This document shows, piece after piece, positions 4,862 to 15,523 of a stretch of 16,733 nt of DNA (positions are counted from its first letter, which is position 1; every line of letters begins with the position of its first letter). The notes below the pieces were generated by a model. The model saw only the letters and a list, made by a program, of their open reading frames with translations. It was not told the origin of the DNA and made no database searches. The DNA comes from Deltaproteobacteria bacterium (GTDB lineage: Bacteria > Bdellovibrionota_B > Oligoflexia > Oligoflexales > Bog-1112): NCBI GenBank assembly GCA_016186945.1, contig JACPKR010000048.1, forward strand, positions 1-16,733, read 5' to 3'. The position numbers were made by a program, and so were the translations under genes.

Positions 4862-4884
4862 CCGGAACAGCCTTGGAACACCTT
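4862..4884 (+). repeat. Left arm of 23-base perfect inverted repeat
   Basis: It begins CCGGAACAGCC and contains two GGAAC motifs 11 bases apart. It is the exact reverse complement of 5075-5097, 190 bases away. Confidence 0.9.
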
Positions 4885-5074: not shown

Positions 5075-5097
5075 AAGGTGTTCCAAGGCTGTTCCGG
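5075..5097 (-). repeat. Right arm of 23-base perfect inverted repeat, inside an 11-base-periodic motif array
   Basis: It is the exact reverse complement of 4862-4884. It lies inside a longer array: GTTCC at 5069, 5080 and 5091, followed by GGAAC in the opposite orientation at 5100 and 5111. The array is therefore itself symmetric around GTTCC-GGCT-GGAAC (5091-5104). Confidence 0.9.
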
Positions 5098-5199
5098 CTG
5101 GAACAGCGCCGGAACAGGAATCGATCGCTGAGAAAAATGGAGGGACCTTGTCTTTAAAAATTGGCTTTTGATCTCCTTCGCAAGACCCGGGGGTTCGAT

Positions 5200-5430
5200 T
5201 TGTACCTTTTTAACTTCGCTCTCAACGTTTGTCGGAAAAAAGCAGCGGAAATTGCTCAGCATTTGGAAACAACTTCAGCTCATATAAGCCAAATACGACG
5301 GGGTAAAGGTACTGGTTCCAAGCAGTTTTGGAAATTTTTCAAGGTCGTGTTCCTGTCTCTTCTGTCTGAAAAAAGAAATCGCACAATTGATAAGGTTATT
5401 AGCGAGCCTTATGAAGACGCCGCAGCCTAG
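5200..5430 (+). CDS. Small helix-turn-helix protein next to the motif array
   Basis: The protein contains a helix-turn-helix of XRE/Cro type: RKKAAEIAQHLETTSAHISQ, then IRRGKG, matching the usual helix 2-turn-helix 3 plus following glycine. It has a basic, hydrophobic C-terminal tail. The start is uncertain. TTG 5200 has GGGGG 6 bases upstream and gives 76 residues; an earlier TTG at 5161 gives 89 residues but lies 16 bases from the nearest GGAGGG. It sits directly downstream of the GTTCC/GGAAC array, so it is the natural candidate to bind those sites as initiator or repressor; that link is inference. There is no sign that it belongs to a toxin-antitoxin pair. Confidence 0.6.
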   Translation: MYLFNFALNVCRKKAAEIAQHLETTSAHISQIRRGKGTGSKQFWKFFKVVFLSLLSEKRNRTIDKVISEPYEDAAA

Positions 5431-5572: not shown

Positions 5573-5950
5573 ATGTCAAATCTCGAAGCACCCGAGGAAT
5601 ACTGGAAGTTAAGTGAGTCGGAGCGCAATTCGTGTACGAACGGTTGCGGACCTGGCTTTCTGCAAGAACTGTCCTTTCTTGGAAAACTTGCGCGCAGGAT
5701 TATGACGACAGACGTTTTCTACGAATCCTGTTGCGTTCACGATTTTGAGTACACACGCGCGAACGTCCTTCCGTCTGAGGCTCACAGAGAGGAAGCTGAC
5801 GAGCGATTCTTGCGGAACATGAAGACGCAAGCAGGCTCTGCAAAGCCCTGGTGGCGACGCTGGATTCGAATTGGGCAGGCGTATCTTTACTACTCACTTG
5901 TTCGCAAGTTGGGTGCCGAGTTTTACAAACAGGGAAAACGGCATGAATGA
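5573..5950 (+). CDS. Phage phospholipase A2-like protein
   Basis: This 125-residue protein carries NGCGPGF (residues 23-29) and FYESCCVHDFEYT (49-61). The latter is the CCxHDxxY catalytic signature of the phospholipase A2 fold, with H56-D57 as the expected active-site and calcium-site pair. A downstream EADERFLRNM segment supplies the conserved acidic helix. A basic C-terminal part with aromatic residues (about 90-118) may bind membranes. There is no signal peptide. Enzymes of this fold cleave the sn-2 ester of phospholipids; in phages the role is unproven, perhaps in lysis or entry. Start ATG 5573 follows GAGGAAG. Its stop overlaps the start of the next small membrane protein by 8 bases, suggesting the two work together. 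Confidence 0.72.
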   Translation: MSNLEAPEEYWKLSESERNSCTNGCGPGFLQELSFLGKLARRIMTTDVFYESCCVHDFEYTRANVLPSEAHREEADERFLRNMKTQAGSAKPWWRRWIRIGQAYLYYSLVRKLGAEFYKQGKRHE

Positions 5951-8488: not shown

Positions 8489-9047
8489 CACAAAACACAC
8501 TGCCGACTTTCTTCGGAAGGAGGAGCGAGAGCTAAAAAAGAGCCTCAATCAGGCTCATAATCGCGCCATCCGCGCTGCCTACGACCTCGGTGCGAAGATG
8601 CTCGCTTACGAGTACGGAATGAAGAAGGGGACGCAATCCAGGCAGGAGAAAGCCCCTGACGAGTCGAAGCGAGTGAGCTTTGGTGACAATACGTGGATCA
8701 AAAAGATCAGGTCCAGGACAAATTCCAATTCCGCAACGCTGTATGCCTCCGATGTTCCCTATAGCGTTCGCCACTCGGTGGTAGGAGTTCAGGAGCCCGC
8801 AAAGAAGAAAGGGATTGCCCCAAAAGCTAGAACTCGGGTTGTAGTAAGGAGGAAACGCAGAAGACTGAAAATGCCGCGTGCCTTCTTTGTGAAAATGGAT
8901 GGTCGTGCGAAATTGCTGGAGAGGGTCGCAGGGATTAAGAATCCAGTACAGATGAAGTGGCCGTCGGTCTTTGAAATACTGACAAGAAATGACAATCACA
9001 AAAAGTTAATGAGTACAGTCTGCAAAGAGTTGGAGAAAGTTTTTTGA
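8478..9047 (+). CDS. Minor tail protein, lambda gpZ-like, with apparent ATC start
   Basis: The frame is open from 8466 to 9047. The first ATG (8598) would remove a well-formed N-terminal segment, ADFLRKEERELKKSLNQAHN, whose Asn-Arg pair aligns in position with the INR of lambda gpZ. Starting at ATC 8478, 10 bases after GAGG and overlapping the previous stop by 11 bases, gives 189 residues; lambda gpZ has 192. The middle VVVRRKRRRLKMPRAFF and later ERVAGIKNPVQMKWPSV segments match gpZ landmarks (basic stretch, IPGAF, QRVAGK, KIPMAVP). gpZ proteins act at the tail-head connection. No ATG, GTG or TTG exists in frame before 8598, so either a rare start or a point change is involved. It sits upstream of the terminase, not with the tail genes. 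Confidence 0.72.
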   Translation: MRLDTKHTADFLRKEERELKKSLNQAHNRAIRAAYDLGAKMLAYEYGMKKGTQSRQEKAPDESKRVSFGDNTWIKKIRSRTNSNSATLYASDVPYSVRHSVVGVQEPAKKKGIAPKARTRVVVRRKRRRLKMPRAFFVKMDGRAKLLERVAGIKNPVQMKWPSVFEILTRNDNHKKLMSTVCKELEKVF

Positions 9048-9057
9048 AAAATGTGTT

Positions 9058-9105
9058 CAAACCACAAAATCTGTGGTTCGACGGGGCAGTGCTTTGCTTT
9101 ATATT
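9058..9105 (+). promoter_or_regulatory. Candidate phage late promoter 1: palindrome plus -10 box
   Basis: CAAACCACA-N5-TGTGGTT (9058-9078) is a perfect 7-bp palindrome. A TATATT box follows at 9100-9105 after 21 bases, predicting a start near 9112. The palindrome would be centred near -43 and overlap the -35 position, which has no good hexamer (TTCGAC at 17-base spacing). This is the geometry of an activator-dependent promoter. The same element recurs at 12141-12189. Downstream lie the terminase genes. Confidence 0.5.
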
Positions 9106-9164
9106 GAGACGTATGAGGAGATTTTTCTTGACGTGAGAGTTGGTAAAAAAATTCAGACATTGTT

Positions 9165-9219
9165 GCGGGTCCTTCCTGATGGAGTTGGCCGAGTGGCCAC
9201 CCCGCTGCCTACTTTTTTT
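9165..9219 (+). terminator. Structured element ending in a T run, in the leader of the terminase operon
   Basis: An outer stem GCGGG (9165-9169) with CCCGC (9201-9205) encloses a short hairpin TCC-TGAT-GGA and a stronger one TGGCC-GAGT-GGCCA (9186-9199). Seven T residues follow at 9213-9219, eight bases after the outer stem. With transcription starting near 9112 this would give a leader RNA of about 108 nt. It could be an attenuator or terminator, or a small phage RNA. The spacing from stem to T run is long for a classical intrinsic terminator, so confidence is low. Confidence 0.35.
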
Positions 9220-9263
9220 AGATTTTAGGGCCTCTTAGAGGTCAAAAACGATAAGGATGGTGA

Positions 9264-9794
9264 GTGATTGCATCTGAAAAAAATGACGTGATGCTAACGA
9301 TCTCTGAACTTGAGAGGCTCACTGGTCACACTTACAGGACTCTCAAACGTCGCTTGTCAAACCTTGATCCCATTAAGGGAGAGCAGCAGAAGCAACTTTA
9401 CAGATTATCCGAGATTTTGAAGAGCTTTCTTGGAGCCGATCAATTCAATCAGGATAAGCTTGAACTCACCCAGGAGCGGGCTGCTCTTGCGAAGGCGCAG
9501 GCAGCAAAGGTGAGGTTCGATTTAGAGCTTGCTCAGGGAAAATACGTAAAGATAGAGGAAATTGAAAAGGAATGGGATCAACTCGTTCTTGCGATTCGAG
9601 GAAAGTTTCTTGCACTTCCTTTCAAACTCGCCCCTCAGCTTGAGAATGTAGCAGCATTTGATGCGGAAGAGTTCCTGAAGGACTCCATCCACGAGATATT
9701 GCAGGAGTTAGCGGATGCTAAAGGAAACCTTGAGGGCGAAGGCATCATCAAGGCTAGCCCCTCCTCCCAAGCTTACGATCAGCGAGTGGGCTGA
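9264..9794 (+). CDS. Terminase small subunit (Nu1-like)
   Basis: The 176-residue protein resembles lambda Nu1-type small terminase subunits, which recognise phage DNA for packaging. The N-terminal part (about 10-45, LTISELERLTGHTYRTLKRR) is a winged HTH like that of Nu1, and the middle (about 65-125) is a long charged helix containing LAKAQAAKVRFDLELAQGKY, typical of the family. Start GTG 9264 has AAGGA 7 bases upstream; an ATG at 9291 would cut into the HTH domain. The terminase large subunit gene overlaps its last 80 bases in another frame. Confidence 0.78.
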   Translation: MIASEKNDVMLTISELERLTGHTYRTLKRRLSNLDPIKGEQQKQLYRLSEILKSFLGADQFNQDKLELTQERAALAKAQAAKVRFDLELAQGKYVKIEEIEKEWDQLVLAIRGKFLALPFKLAPQLENVAAFDAEEFLKDSIHEILQELADAKGNLEGEGIIKASPSSQAYDQRVG

Positions 9795-11487
9795 CCGTTA
9801 CCGCAAGCTCTCCCGCGAATCCTCAGCAGAACCAGGCCAATGGAAAACAGATCGTGCTCCCTATCAAAAAAGCATGATGGACGCAGTCTCCAACCCTAGA
9901 GTTCGCACGATTGTCCTAATGACGGCATCTCAGATTGGCAAGTCCTGCCTTCTGGAGAATGTCATAGGTTACTTTATTTGTTACGACCCTTCTCCAATCC
10001 TGCTCGTGCAACCGACATTGCAAATGTCACAGGCGTTCTCCAAAGACAGGCTCTCTCCACTCGCTCGCGACACCCCCATCCTTCACGGGAAATTGCAGCA
10101 TGCTCGTACAAAAGACGGTTCCAATACGGTTCTTCACAAAACGTTTCCAGGGGGACACATCACACTTTCTGGCGCCAATTCCCCGGCTTCTCTTGCTTCC
10201 AGACCTATTCGCATTCTTCTTTGCGACGAGGTTGACAGATGGCCTCTTACGGCGGGAACGGAAGGTTCCCCGCTTCACATTGCTGCCAAACGAACGGTGA
10301 CGTTTTACAACAGAAAGCATGTCTTTGCTTCGACACCTGGGAATTCGGGCGAGTCGATCATAGCCGATGAGTGGGAATTGTCGAACAAGCAACGTTATCA
10401 TGTCCCCTGCCCTCATTGCGAACATTATCAGACGCTTGAGTGGAAAAACGTGAAGTGGATAAAAGACGGGGATATTCATAAACCTGAAACAGCCTATTAC
10501 GAATGCGAAAGTTGTCAGGGGAGAATTTCAGAGGTGAATAAACAGGTCATGCTAAGGCGAGGGAAATGGGTTGCCGAACATCCTGAAGTTCTGGAGCGAC
10601 AAGGTTTTCACATCAACGAGCTATATTCTCCCTGGAGAAGATGGTCGCAAGTTGTTTCTGACTTTCTTGCTTCCAAAGATCATCCTGAGAAGTTGAAGGT
10701 GTGGGTCAATACATCGCTCGGGCTTCCGTTCCAGTACAAATCTGACGAACACCCCGAGTGGCGAAGTCTTTACAGTCGCAGGGAAAACTACACAATAGGC
10801 ACGGCTCCGGCTGCTTGCACCCTTCTTACTGCCGGTGTCGATGTTCAGGCTGACCGCCTTGAATGCACGGTCATTGGTTGGAAAGATAGCGAGGCGTTCG
10901 TCATCGACCACATTGTTTTTCCTGGGCGCACTTCAGATATCGACTCGCCTTGTTGGACCGAACTTGATGCGTTACTTGCCAAGACTTGGGAGAAGGCCAA
11001 TGGGTCGACCCTAAGAATACGAAGAATGGCGATTGACTCCGGTTACAACACCAGCACGGTTTACGCGTACTGTCAGAAAAAGCCGTCGGCTCGCGTTCTT
11101 GCCATCCGGGGCCTTGATAGTCTCGATGTTCCCATTGGCACTCCTCGTCGTGTCTATGTTCGCTCGACAGGGAAACGTTCTCGTTCCCTTCTTCTTTGGG
11201 GACTTGGGGTTTCTATCATAAAAAGCGATCTCTACAGCCGCCTTTCCCTGCCTGCTCCAACAGAGGAGGAGATCGAAAAGAACGGTTTTCCCTCTCAGTA
11301 CATCCATTTCCCCGAACTTGGGCAGACTTACTTTCAGCAACTTACCGGAGAAACTTGCGCTCTCACGACGGACGCCCACGGTCGCCCGAAATACACTTGG
11401 CGAAAGATTCATCCCGAGGTCGAGGCCCTCGATTGCTTCGTTTACGCCATGGCTATGCAGCAGTTTCGGGGGGCCAAAATCAACTAG
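9715..11487 (+). CDS. Terminase large subunit (GpA family)
   Basis: The 590-residue protein is the packaging motor ATPase and genome-cutting nuclease. The ATPase begins with MTASQIGKSC (K76, a GpA-type P-loop) and has Walker B ILLCDEVDRWP (D171-E172). A zinc-finger pair CPHC ... CESC lies in the linker near residues 230-265. The nuclease shows GVDVQADRLEC (D376), AIDSGYN (D441) and EALDCFVYAM (D573), the acidic triad expected in GpA proteins. ATG 9715 has AGGAG upstream and lies inside terS. Its stop overlaps the 3' end of the leftward antitoxin gene by 8 bases, so the two transcripts converge here. GpA-type terminases usually act at cohesive or related ends, but the packaging mode is not shown. 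Confidence 0.93.
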   Translation: MLKETLRAKASSRLAPPPKLTISEWADRYRKLSRESSAEPGQWKTDRAPYQKSMMDAVSNPRVRTIVLMTASQIGKSCLLENVIGYFICYDPSPILLVQPTLQMSQAFSKDRLSPLARDTPILHGKLQHARTKDGSNTVLHKTFPGGHITLSGANSPASLASRPIRILLCDEVDRWPLTAGTEGSPLHIAAKRTVTFYNRKHVFASTPGNSGESIIADEWELSNKQRYHVPCPHCEHYQTLEWKNVKWIKDGDIHKPETAYYECESCQGRISEVNKQVMLRRGKWVAEHPEVLERQGFHINELYSPWRRWSQVVSDFLASKDHPEKLKVWVNTSLGLPFQYKSDEHPEWRSLYSRRENYTIGTAPAACTLLTAGVDVQADRLECTVIGWKDSEAFVIDHIVFPGRTSDIDSPCWTELDALLAKTWEKANGSTLRIRRMAIDSGYNTSTVYAYCQKKPSARVLAIRGLDSLDVPIGTPRRVYVRSTGKRSRSLLLWGLGVSIIKSDLYSRLSLPAPTEEEIEKNGFPSQYIHFPELGQTYFQQLTGETCALTTDAHGRPKYTWRKIHPEVEALDCFVYAMAMQQFRGAKIN

Positions 11488-11806
11488 CCTTTTTTTGTAT
11501 CTCTTTGACTGTAACTTTCAATTTCAGGCTAGCTTCTTTAAGAAGGTCGTTGATGGCAATCTCGACTAGAGTGGCTCGGGGATAGCCTATAGCTTTTGCA
11601 ATTGCTGCTGCTTTTTGGGGGCTGACTCCTTTTCTTCCTCTTTCTATATCGCAGAGATTGGCCGGCGAAATACCTATCAAATCGGCAAAGTCTCTTTGTG
11701 ACATTTCTTCAGAAAGGCGCCACGACCTAATAAATTCAGCAAACGTTAACGGTCCCACCCTTTTTTCAAGTTGTTTTAAATTATAATATTTTTCTTTAGT
11801 ACTCAT
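11480..11806 (-). CDS. higA: HigA-type antitoxin (XRE helix-turn-helix)
   Basis: The 108-residue protein has a clear XRE helix-turn-helix at about residues 35-75 (MSQRDFADLIGISPANLCDI, ERGRKGVSPQKAAAIAKAIG) and a longer C-terminal helix. It would neutralise the toxin encoded just upstream and, with it, repress their promoter. ATG 11806 is chosen: GAGG is 9 bases upstream and the start overlaps the toxin stop by 11 bases; an earlier ATG at 11821 is possible. Toxin gene first and antitoxin second is the HigBA order. The 3' end overlaps the terminase large gene convergently. The family name is by resemblance; RelBE-type naming would also be acceptable. Confidence 0.8.
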   Translation of the reverse strand: MSTKEKYYNLKQLEKRVGPLTFAEFIRSWRLSEEMSQRDFADLIGISPANLCDIERGRKGVSPQKAAAIAKAIGYPRATLVEIAINDLLKEASLKLKVTVKEIQKKAS

Positions 11807-12071
11807 GTTTACTAACCTCAATGACTTCGATAAGCTCTATCCGTCCATCTCGTGTTTCGATGTAAATTGCTCGGTAAGCCTTGCTGAGTCTGATCGATCG
11901 TTGTCCAGATCGTTGTCCCTTAAGTGGCTCATCGTGAAACCCAGGGCTTTTTCTAAGCACCCGTATCCCTTCTTTCTCGATGGCTAGAGCCCAAGCCATA
12001 AACTTTTTTTGAATATAGTCTGGAATTTTAGATAGTTGACGATCGACCTTCTTTTCCCAGATAACTTTCAT
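11796..12071 (-). CDS. higB: RelE/HigB-type toxin (mRNA interferase family)
   Basis: From ATG 12071 this 91-residue protein has the RelE/ParE-fold pattern: a starting strand MKVIWEKKVDRQLSKIP, a helix with KKFMAWALAIEKEG, then PLKG and RSIRLSKAYRAIYI (about 58-71) with the basic strand typical of HigB/RelE ribosome-dependent mRNA interferases, and a C-terminal ELIEVIEVSKHEY strand. A longer frame begins at 12107, but its first codons are the -35 box of the promoter, so ATG 12071 is preferred. It forms a leftward operon with the antitoxin gene, inserted between phage late genes. Expected role: growth arrest, plasmid or prophage maintenance, or defence against other phages. Confidence 0.8.
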   Translation of the reverse strand: MKVIWEKKVDRQLSKIPDYIQKKFMAWALAIEKEGIRVLRKSPGFHDEPLKGQRSGQRSIRLSKAYRAIYIETRDGRIELIEVIEVSKHEY

Positions 12072-12077
12072 CTTTAT

Positions 12078-12107
12078 AAGATACTGCTTAAGGCAGTACA
12101 ATGTCAA
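12078..12107 (-). promoter_or_regulatory. Toxin-antitoxin promoter with embedded operator palindrome
   Basis: On the minus strand TTGACA (12107-12102) is a perfect -35 box and TATCTT (12083-12078) a fair -10 box, 18 bases apart. Between them lies the perfect inverted repeat TACTGC-N5-GCAGTA (12082-12098), placed for autorepression by the antitoxin. Counting from the -10 box, transcription would begin at about 12071, the A of the toxin ATG, so the mRNA may be leaderless. Confidence 0.65.
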
Positions 12108-12140
12108 CCCTCAATTGTCTCTAAGCCATTCAAAAACACC

Positions 12141-12189
12141 CAAACCACAATTTCTGTGGTTTATATCTTTCTTTCCCCTGACGTATAAA
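12141..12189 (+). promoter_or_regulatory. Candidate phage late promoter 2: second copy of the palindrome plus -10 box
   Basis: CAAACCACA-N5-TGTGGTT (12141-12161) matches the copy at 9058-9078 at 19 of 21 bases; the two differences are in the central loop. A TATAAA box at 12184-12189 follows after 22 bases. Transcription would begin near 12196, ahead of gpW and the portal. The sequences between palindrome and -10 box otherwise differ, so only the palindrome and geometry are conserved. Confidence 0.5.
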
Positions 12190-12232: not shown

Positions 12233-12433
12233 TTGAAGTTTACAAATGAGCAACTTGAAAAGCTTATGCAGGCGTATGCTTCAGGTGCCCTCAGAGTCCG
12301 CTTTGGGGAACGCGAAGTCGTCTATCGTTCGGAGGAAGAACTTCGGCGAGCGATCGAGCGAGTGGCAAAGGAGCTTGGAAAAAAGCAAACGGTGAAAATC
12401 CCAAGAAGCTTCGGCAGCAAAGGGCTTACATGA
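12233..12433 (+). CDS. Head-tail joining protein, gpW-like
   Basis: This 66-residue protein is close in length to lambda gpW (68 residues) and has its pattern: an N-terminal helix EQLEKLMQAYASGALRVRFG, a two-strand turn (EREVVYRSEEE) and a second helix (LRRAIERVAKELGKK). gpW completes the head by filling the connector after packaging. Start is TTG 12233 behind GGGGGCGAG. The TGA overlaps the portal ATG by 4 bases, reproducing the W-B gene order of lambda. Confidence 0.82.
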   Translation: MKFTNEQLEKLMQAYASGALRVRFGEREVVYRSEEELRRAIERVAKELGKKQTVKIPRSFGSKGLT

Positions 12434-13794
12434 ACTGGCTAGATAGAAGCATAGCTTTTTTCGCACCTCGCTATGCGTACCGTCGCGCTAACGCACGTCG
12501 CTGGTACGAAGCGGCCTCCAACGCCGAGCGCCTGCGCGACTGGAAGCCTGTCGGGGATGCCAAAAGTTCGTATTTGTCGAAGACCATTCGAGAACGAGCA
12601 AGAGACCTCTACAGAAACAATCCTTATGCTCACCGCGCTGTGAACACATTTGCATCTTACGCCGTGGGTAAGGGAATCACACCCCATGCTTTCGTTCAGA
12701 GGGGGCTAAAATCGAAAGCGCATGAAGAGTTTCTAAAGCAATGGGCCGATACAAGTCTCTGCGACGCGAACAACCGTCATACTCTCTATGGCTTGCAATC
12801 TATAGCAACGCAACACCTCGTAAGAGACGGTGAAGTTTTTCTGCAAAGAGTGATGGCCGACGACCTCCTTCCGCTTAAGCTTCGGATGCTTGACCCGGAC
12901 TTTCTTGACACAAATCGAACGGAACGGGGACAGAATCGAGACGTCATCCAAGGTGTCGAGTATGATAACCAGGGGATTGTCACCGCCTACTATTTCTTCG
13001 AGCGCAATCCTAATGAGCAAAGTTATTCTGTTCCCAAATCAAAGCGTATTCCAGCTAGCGACATTATCCACCTCTTTCGCACAGATTTCGCGGGTCAGAC
13101 ACGAGGCATAAGTTGGCTTGCACCCATCATGGTTCGCATGCGCGACCTGGATGAATACGAGGACGCTCACATTGTCCGGCAAAAAATTGCTGCTATGTTT
13201 GTCGGAGTCATTCGCGACTTGGAGCCTCTGGATATTGAAGAAACCGAGAAGGCCCTGAGGAAAATGGAGCCGGGGTCATGGTTTCCAGCTCCTCCGGGGA
13301 AAACAGTCGAGTTTTCCAACCCTCCCTCTGTCGAAGGATTCGGGGAATATATTGAGCATTCCAAGTACACGATCGCCACAGGTCTTGGCATTCCATACAT
13401 GATTTTGTCGAGCGATTTTTCCAAAGCCAATTACAGCAACGCCCGCATGGCGATGCTTAATTTTTACAAACTTATCGAGCAGGTTCAGAACCATATTCTC
13501 ATTCCACAATTCTGCGACCGAGTCTTTCAATGGTTTTTGGAAGCTTGCGAGTTAAGGGGCCTGAGAGGTGACGGGGTGAGGTGTCTATGGGTTCCCCCTA
13601 AAAAGGATATCGTCGATCCCTTAAAGGACTATCAAGCTTACAAAATAGGAGTTGAAGAAAATTTTATTTCTCATGCCAGCGTGGTTAGGGAACTTGGCGA
13701 CGATCCAGATAGTACCTACCAGGAAATTGCAAACGTCAAGAAACAACTTAAAAAACTAGGAATTGAAAATGAAACTAACAACGAGAAAAGCTAG
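12430..13794 (+). CDS. Portal protein, lambda gpB-like
   Basis: The 454-residue protein forms the DNA-entry ring at one head vertex. It has the lambda-family portal landmarks: the basic N-terminal RRANARRWYEAAS, RARDLYRNNPYAHRAVNTF (about 57-75), a long RDGEVFLQR... LDPDFLDT segment, the SDIIHLFRTDFAGQTRGISW stretch (about 208-227) and the late ANYSNARMAMLNFYK clip-region motif (about 335-349). ATG 12430 overlaps the gpW stop as ATGA. The C terminus overlaps the protease-capsid fusion by 26 bases. Confidence 0.9.
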   Translation: MNWLDRSIAFFAPRYAYRRANARRWYEAASNAERLRDWKPVGDAKSSYLSKTIRERARDLYRNNPYAHRAVNTFASYAVGKGITPHAFVQRGLKSKAHEEFLKQWADTSLCDANNRHTLYGLQSIATQHLVRDGEVFLQRVMADDLLPLKLRMLDPDFLDTNRTERGQNRDVIQGVEYDNQGIVTAYYFFERNPNEQSYSVPKSKRIPASDIIHLFRTDFAGQTRGISWLAPIMVRMRDLDEYEDAHIVRQKIAAMFVGVIRDLEPLDIEETEKALRKMEPGSWFPAPPGKTVEFSNPPSVEGFGEYIEHSKYTIATGLGIPYMILSSDFSKANYSNARMAMLNFYKLIEQVQNHILIPQFCDRVFQWFLEACELRGLRGDGVRCLWVPPKKDIVDPLKDYQAYKIGVEENFISHASVVRELGDDPDSTYQEIANVKKQLKKLGIENETNNEKS

Positions 13795-15523
13795 CTTTAC
13801 CACTCAATCGGCCAACGATGAAGACTTAAGCGTCGAGCTTGTGTGGTCAACAGGCGCCCGAGTTCTACGGTCTGACTTCGGGGAGCGCTACTATGAGGAA
13901 CTTTCCCTTGCAGCGGATTCCATCGACCTTTCACGGTTGAACAGGGGCGCTCCTCTTCTCAACTCCCATAAGGCACATGACCTTTCTAACCAAATCGGTG
14001 TTGTGGAACGAGCCTGGGTTGAGGGAAATGAAGCTCGCGCAAAAGTCAGGTTTTCAAAACGATCTGACGTACAGCCCATCTACGAAGACGTGAAAAACAA
14101 GATCATCCGTAACGTTTCGGTCGGCTACCGAGTTCTGGCAACGAAAGAAGAAACAAGAGAAGGTGACGACTACAAGACTGTTATCGCTACGAAATGGCAG
14201 CCCCAGGAATTAAGCCTTGTCGCTATTCCCGCAGACAGCAAAGCACAAATCAGGAGAGAAAAATCAGTCGAAGAGGTGCGTTCCGAAGAAAGGAAGAGAG
14301 TCGTTGAGATTAACAGGTTAATAGACAGGTTTCGCCTTCCCCAAGCAGTAAGCGACAGTCTCATTTCTTCAGGCGCGAACCTTGAACAGGCCAGAGAAAA
14401 AATCCTTCAGGAGCTTGCTAGAGAATCAGAGGAAAAAAAGGTGAACACACGTTCCATTCAGATTACACGCGATGAGAGGGACACAAGACGTGACTTCATA
14501 GCCAAGGCCATCCTGCATAGACAACACCCTACTTCAAAAAAAGAAGAGGGCGTTTATCCGTACTGCGGTCAAAGCCTCGTTGAGCTTGCTAGAATAAGCC
14601 TCGGGCTGAGCGGAACATATAGCAAGGAGGAAGTTGTCTCGCGGGCTTTTCATTCTACGTCCGACTTTCCTCTTATACTTGGAAACGTGGCCAAGCAGAG
14701 ACTGCTCTCCTCTTACGAAGCACTCGCTAAGAAGCAGAACTTCTGGCCTCTCGTCAAAGTCGTATCCGTCGGCGATTTCAAGGAGATCAAGCGAGTCAGG
14801 CTTGGAGAATCCCCTTCTCTTAAAGAAGTCAGAGAGGGCGAGAATTTCAGCTATTCAACTAAAACAGAAGAAGAGGAAAGTTACAAGATTACGACCTTCG
14901 GTCGCATTTTCTCCATCACTCGACAGACGATCGTCAATGACGACCTCGGCGCCTTTGATGACATGGGAGATTGGGGGTCTTCCGCAGCTAAACTGGAAAG
15001 CAAGCTCTTCTGGAGCATCTTTAACGAAAACCAAAAAACAGCGAAGGGAATACAACTCTTCAATCAAAAGAACAAGTTTGACAAGTCTCAAACCTTGTCG
15101 ATCAGGGCTCTTTCCGACGCAAGGCTTTTTATGGCAAGACAAAGAGGAGTCGATGAAAAAGAAAGCGAGTGCCTCGATATCCAGGCAGAATATTTGATTG
15201 TGCCCCCGGAATTGCAGACGGAAGCCGAGCAGTTCCTAAGTCGTGAAGTCGTTCCGCAGAAGCCGAACGAAGTAAACCCGTTCAAAGGTGCCTTTAAGCT
15301 TATCGTCTCTACTTGGCTTTCAGACACAAAGGCTTGGTATCTTTCGGCGTCTCGTGAGCAGGGCTTGGACCTTATCGAGATGGCCTATCTTGAAGGAAGA
15401 CGCGAGCCTTTTGTGGAATGGAAAACAAACTTTGAAAACGACTCGATCGCTGTTAAGGCAAGAATGGATGTAGGAGCTAAGGCGATCGACTACAGAGGAT
15501 TTTTCCAGGGAGCTTGGACATGA
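13769..15523 (+). CDS. Prohead protease / major capsid protein fusion
   Basis: This 584-residue protein joins two usually separate head proteins. Residues 1-160 resemble a prohead protease: LLNSHKAHDLSNQIG carries the expected catalytic H67 and IRNVSVGYRV the nucleophile S117, followed by WQPQELSLVAIPADS. Residues 160-230 are charged and helical, likely a scaffold-like delta region. From about 230 to the end the protein resembles the Mu gpT-type major head subunit, with FWPLVKVVSVGDFKEIKRVR and GRIFSITRQTIVNDDLGAF. Fusions of this kind are known as prohead protease/major capsid fusion proteins; self-cleavage would free the coat. ATG 13769 has AGGA upstream; a TTG at 13763 is the alternative. 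The next gene starts inside its stop (ATGA). Confidence 0.88.
   Translation: MKLTTRKASFTTQSANDEDLSVELVWSTGARVLRSDFGERYYEELSLAADSIDLSRLNRGAPLLNSHKAHDLSNQIGVVERAWVEGNEARAKVRFSKRSDVQPIYEDVKNKIIRNVSVGYRVLATKEETREGDDYKTVIATKWQPQELSLVAIPADSKAQIRREKSVEEVRSEERKRVVEINRLIDRFRLPQAVSDSLISSGANLEQAREKILQELARESEEKKVNTRSIQITRDERDTRRDFIAKAILHRQHPTSKKEEGVYPYCGQSLVELARISLGLSGTYSKEEVVSRAFHSTSDFPLILGNVAKQRLLSSYEALAKKQNFWPLVKVVSVGDFKEIKRVRLGESPSLKEVREGENFSYSTKTEEEESYKITTFGRIFSITRQTIVNDDLGAFDDMGDWGSSAAKLESKLFWSIFNENQKTAKGIQLFNQKNKFDKSQTLSIRALSDARLFMARQRGVDEKESECLDIQAEYLIVPPELQTEAEQFLSREVVPQKPNEVNPFKGAFKLIVSTWLSDTKAWYLSASREQGLDLIEMAYLEGRREPFVEWKTNFENDSIAVKARMDVGAKAIDYRGFFQGAWT

Follow-up and report, generated by a model that had tools for sequence, protein, structure and literature searches.

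Two copies of one palindrome, AACCACA-N5-TGTGGTT, stand in front of two late operons in a prophage of a Bdellovibrionota bacterium. Judged by sequence, these are genuine phage-specific palindromes of operator-like form, positioned for the co-regulation of two late operons with cargo between them. We propose, giving the idea about an even chance, that the palindromes would be operators for one phage-encoded dimeric, sequence-specific DNA-binding protein co-regulating the two late transcription units. Phage regulation here is of a known general kind; the use of one regulator with several late operators is a principle long established.

Two late operons separated by a toxin-antitoxin module

The window, by which we mean the whole stretch of DNA analysed, is one complete contig of 16,733 bases and holds the left part of a myovirus-type prophage. 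It starts on the left with a probable host transporter gene and an HTH regulator gene, both on the minus strand, which are followed by an early part with a small HTH gene, a toprim primase-helicase, a PDDEXK exonuclease, RecT and a VRR nuclease. Next come a probable minor tail gene (assigned by eye), terS, a gpA-type terL and a reversed RelE/HigB-HigA module, while the right part consists of gpW, portal, protease-capsid, cement and head closure genes and the start of the tail sheath gene. The late region was surveyed as far as the contig end, which falls in tail genes. The placement described in the initial annotation was borne out: copy 1 precedes terS-terL, in the gap between the probable tail gene and terS, and copy 2 precedes gpW-portal-capsid, in the gap between the toxin-antitoxin module and gpW, both late operons being on the + strand.

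9264 to 9794, + strand: terS, terminase small subunit (phrog_57, E 1e-19; DUF1441)
9715 to 11487, + strand: terL, gpA-type terminase large subunit (GpA_ATPase E 1e-84, GpA_nuclease E 4e-77), the true start probably a little downstream of 9715
11480 to 11821, - strand (reversed): XRE-type antitoxin, HigA/HipB-like (family match)
11796 to 12071, - strand (reversed): RelE/HigB-like toxin, ATG at 12071 (family match)
12078 to 12107, - strand: toxin-antitoxin promoter TTGACA-18-TATCTT (promoter scan)
12082 to 12098: separate palindrome TACTGC-N5-GCAGTA, between the -35 and -10 of the toxin-antitoxin promoter
12233 to 12433, + strand: gpW-like head-tail adaptor (phrog_2545)
12430 to 13794, + strand: portal, lambda family (family match)
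13763 to 15523, + strand: prohead protease-major capsid fusion (family match)

The reversed toxin-antitoxin module that had been reported between the two late blocks is indeed present; it is of HigBA type and separates terL from gpW. Its promoter contains TACTGC-N5-GCAGTA, which is likely, from its position, to be the pair's own operator. The AACCACA site (copy 2) lies about 36 bases upstream of the -35 of this promoter (12107-12078) and outside it, and was rejected as a HigBA autoregulatory operator on that ground.

The terL-gpW junction resembles an insertion hot spot, with different inserts in the window (11480-12107, the reversed toxin-antitoxin genes) and in three other prophages: a reversed block carrying a gene for a single-strand-binding protein in L158 (7239-8219), response-regulator and HTH genes in L150 (6945-8462) and a longer insert in L152 (2900-8800). 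In both the window (8598-9047) and L158 (12220-12915), terS is immediately preceded by a probable minor tail (Z-like) gene, assigned by eye without a family match; this gene order differs from the usual lambda order. In the early or lysis-like region, positions 5573-5950 encode a small protein that weakly matches prokaryotic phospholipase A2 (E 1.1e-4, which does not reach the Pfam cut-off). Beyond the primase-helicase gene, the non-coding DNA contains a perfect 23-bp inverted repeat (4862-4884 and 5075-5097, 190 bases between the arms), flanked by many copies of GGAACA/TGTTCC and found only here within the genome; the region looks like an iteron-type phage replication origin.

Within the genome, the palindrome pair is unique to the prophage

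Both 21-base sites of the initial annotation, 9058-9078 and 12141-12161, were recovered, with 19 of 21 bases equal. Their shared core is 19 bases long, with perfect 7-bp arms.

9060 to 9078: palindrome copy 1, AACCACA-AAATC-TGTGGTT, with an imperfect extension to 9057-9081 (pattern search)
12143 to 12161: palindrome copy 2, AACCACA-ATTTC-TGTGGTT, with an extension to 12142-12162 (pattern search)

The claim that there is no third copy held even at three mismatches, the window yielding only these 2 sites, each read on both strands; in the shuffle control for this search, 4 matches were reached in 0 of 200 shuffles. The half-sites AACCACA and TGTGGTT are present in the window only inside the two palindromes. 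When the window was Markov-shuffled 1500 times, a repeated perfect palindrome with an identical 7-bp arm and equal spacer arose in 10 of the shuffles. The two copies are both intergenic, in a window of which 11.6% is non-coding, and when they are aligned in register the similarity is confined to the palindrome, with identical arms, a variable spacer and no likeness outside. Uniqueness, rarity in shuffles, non-coding placement and the end of similarity at the palindrome edge together argue for a functional site rather than a duplicated segment.

Across the 2.66 Mb genome the exact palindrome occurs only at these two positions, both in the prophage. Allowing up to 2 mismatches gave 12 sites, where a reversed control pattern gave 8, and the remaining 2-mismatch sites were taken as background because the count is near that of the control. 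Since no other exact copy stands before any host gene, the operator of a host regulon was discarded as a candidate, and a host regulator is, from these counts, unlikely to own the palindromes. Two known boxes were likewise set aside. No DnaA box pair (TTWTNCACA) matches anywhere in the window. An NrdR box is defined by N6 spacing and a tandem second box; here the spacing is N5 and there is no tandem second box. A literature search on the palindrome halves returned unrelated matches only, among the matches listed.

Promoter-like hexamers follow both copies

The TATATT and TATAAA boxes reported downstream of the palindromes are present, at gaps of 21 and 22 bases.

9100 to 9105, + strand: TATATT, -10-like hexamer, 5/6 with A2 and T6 present, inferred start about 9112
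12184 to 12189, + strand: TATAAA, -10-like hexamer, 5/6 with T6 missing, inferred start about 12196

As -10 elements, TATATT is good and TATAAA poor, and the -35 regions are poor at both sites. Relative to the inferred starts the palindromes are centred at about -43 and -44, in agreement with the proposed position near -43 over a poor -35, and the two palindrome-to-hexamer spacings are one base out of register with each other. Hexamers of at least 5/6 with gaps agreeing within 1 base occur at about 0.7% of random non-coding anchor pairs; this test is post hoc, and its support is modest because the hexamers were picked after looking. Promoter activity at both sites would be compatible with this arrangement.

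Candidate binding proteins

At least one small protein of the phage is XRE-like, as judged by a structural model and a weak fold match, and two ORFs were considered as candidate binders.

1914 to 2138, + strand: small HTH protein, candidate binder, at the head of the rightward early operon
5161 to 5430, + strand: small HTH-like ORF, candidate binder, in the early region (by eye only)

For the product of 1914-2138, an AlphaFold2 single-sequence model has four helices and is HTH-like (pLDDT 71.5), and its best fold matches are structures of the P22 c2 repressor, which are weak (prob 0.72, E 0.96). The 5161-5430 ORF gave no match in a family search and a poor predicted model (pLDDT 58). No relatives of either protein were found in 55 genomes.

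The palindrome in related phages

A search of related prophages for the palindrome, as suggested with the initial annotation, found it absent from about 60 gpA-type terminase loci, the closest of which has a terL 53% identical to that of the window. These include 50 loci from GTDB genomes, some of which are the same prophages under another accession; the nearest are four prophages, three from a single genome and the fourth from another (terL 52-53% identical), the further ones being about 31-38% identical. Relatives with a terminase in the same order include Pseudobacteriovorax (G012), which places the host in that part of the Bdellovibrionota. Phage regulators have operators that evolve rapidly. 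The relatives are too distant for persistence of an operator sequence to be expected, and therefore its absence from them, although named as a refuting outcome in the initial annotation, neither supports nor refutes an operator. No relative with more than about 80% terL identity was found in IMG/VR, INPHARED or GTDB genomes by terL, portal or DNA searches.

The nearest site among the approximately 60 loci has a single mismatch and lies 3.7 kb from terL in a Paenibacillus locus. Across 55 related genomes, exact matches stay at chance level (1 match versus 3 control matches). Several matches in IMG/VR were rejected. At four loci with a gpA-type terL near the bare palindrome (L039, L065, L078 and L116, among the matches listed), the match falls inside a holin-like ORF and was taken as chance. 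The palindrome with a -10 occurs on 7 contigs (L062, L072, L082, L117 and L163-L165), whose fetched stretches carry no relative of the window genes, and neither of the 2 contigs with a longer 17-base pattern carries one.

We also compared the regions that correspond to the two sites. No shared element above background was found between them in L150, L152 and L158, which also have genes between terL and gpW/portal, whereas the window's own pair stands out in this comparison (16/18, where the background reached at most 14). When pairs were sought less strictly in 16 loci, that of the window ranked first among the low-GC loci; L153 had one 16/21 pair around terL, which is close to the background rate. 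A scan for repeated palindromes flanking terL in 60 loci, including the window, gave zero when arms with fewer than 3 different letters were skipped; this zero says nothing on rarity, because the window's own pair, whose 6-bp arms consist solely of A and C and the complementary letters, was itself skipped.

Other features of these loci were observed along the way. The terL open frame of L158 (8426-11530) has 1034 codons, with an intein-like insert that splits the ATPase domain. A perfect DnaA box, TTATCCACA, is present in each of three Pseudobacteriovorax prophages (L150 at 6330, L151 at 4260 and L152 at 8500, each locus being oriented to have terL on the + strand); it precedes a conserved pre-terS stretch by about 50-65 bases. 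The window's own sequence just before terS (9178-9245) has a hairpin (about 9183-9214) followed by seven T and then a second inverted repeat (GGCCTCT-TAGAGGTC). It loosely resembles the stretch conserved upstream of terS in L150-L152, without BLAST-level similarity, and is a candidate cos site or late-leader terminator.

Discussion

In the mechanism that we propose, a putative phage-encoded dimer, probably of XRE type, would read both 19-bp palindromes and so tie the terS-terL and gpW-portal-capsid units together. A second site would be needed for co-regulation because terL and gpW have the reversed toxin-antitoxin pair between them. The predicted binder would touch RNA polymerase from a site centred near -43/-44. 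With that centre and a poor -35, an activator fits better than a simple roadblock; activation in lytic growth would therefore be likelier, and is the likeliest single sign to assign to the sites. Identical arms around a variable spacer are as expected for a dimer operator.

Several known systems resemble this arrangement in part. In P2 Ogr and P4 Delta, several late promoters have a short inverted repeat upstream to which a phage-encoded activator binds, and separated late operons are linked in this way; a short inverted repeat before separated late operons is common to that system and ours. The Ogr site is TGT-N12-ACA, centred near -55; the half-sites here face the opposite way (ACA-N5-TGT), with an inferred centre near -43/-44, and the Ogr pattern was not found. 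No match to the Ogr/Delta zinc-finger family was found among the ORFs scanned on the contig, which holds only part of the phage. At class II activator promoters (CRP class II) and for lambda CI at pRM, a dimer site is centred near -42 (-41.5) and overlaps a poor -35. The sites described here would also overlap a poor -35, with centres at -43/-44 by inferred starts, but their sequence differs and their spacing differs by one base between the copies. Similar to lambda Q at pR', there is a possible promoter just upstream of terS with a terminator-like hairpin about 80-100 bases on; however, here there are two palindromes at two places, copy 2 has no such terminator, and no match to the Q family was found among the ORFs scanned on the contig. 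The likeness to HigBA-type operators, an XRE antitoxin with a palindrome near the module, is offset by the different palindrome within the module's own promoter and by the presence of the AACCACA palindrome 3 kb away as well.

Among the alternatives, a phage repressor or Cro-like protein could silence two leaky late promoters in the lysogen. XRE-type phage repressors (lambda, P22, 434) bind palindromes of this size, the site anatomy would be the same, and the 1914-2138 HTH protein weakly resembles P22 c2. Yet the early control region (1337-1913), where the main repressor operators are expected, contains neither palindrome nor half-site, and without an activator the late promoters would have poor -35 regions; we regard repression as unlikely. 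It is very improbable that copy 2 is a second operator of the HigA-type antitoxin, with copy 1 an extra site at which the antitoxin touches the terminase promoter. The antitoxin does belong to the XRE proteins, and copy 2 is located upstream of the toxin, in the divergent region, but the toxin-antitoxin promoter already holds a different palindrome (12082-12098) and copy 1 is 3 kb distant with no toxin-antitoxin promoter there, which makes this pair an unlikely owner of the sites.

The palindromes might instead act as RNA, each forming a 7-bp hairpin with a 5-base loop for antitermination (nut/put-like), processing or weak termination before each late block, which we consider decidedly unlikely. 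Each copy folds at about -8.8 kcal/mol as RNA, both could be transcribed by readthrough or from a weak + strand promoter-like site (12073-12102), and a terminator-like hairpin with seven T (about 9183-9214) lies downstream of copy 1. Nevertheless, the loop varies while the arms are identical, so that the arms appear to be read as sequence and DNA recognition is favoured; there is no shared boxA-like companion, the flanks of the 19-mers are dissimilar, and an Rfam search gave no match. An intrinsic terminator in particular was rejected and is unlikely, because copy 1 continues on the + strand as CGACGGGGCAG, with no U-tract after the stem; a terminator scan found no + strand terminator at copy 1 and a weak one only at copy 2. 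The lack of conservation in any relative examined would suit chance or a functionless remnant. This we consider highly unlikely given the shuffle result, the location of both copies in non-coding DNA (about 1%) and the matching -10 spacing.

Returning to co-regulation by a single phage protein, a more specific version is tentative and somewhat improbable: a new XRE-type late activator, encoded by a prophage of the Bdellovibrionota, whose regulon of two sites would start late transcription afresh beyond the reversed toxin-antitoxin module inserted there. If the operator reading is true, it would offer a concrete way into the late gene control of temperate phages in a host group that has been little studied, and would show how a phage can keep late genes together despite cargo inserted between terL and gpW.
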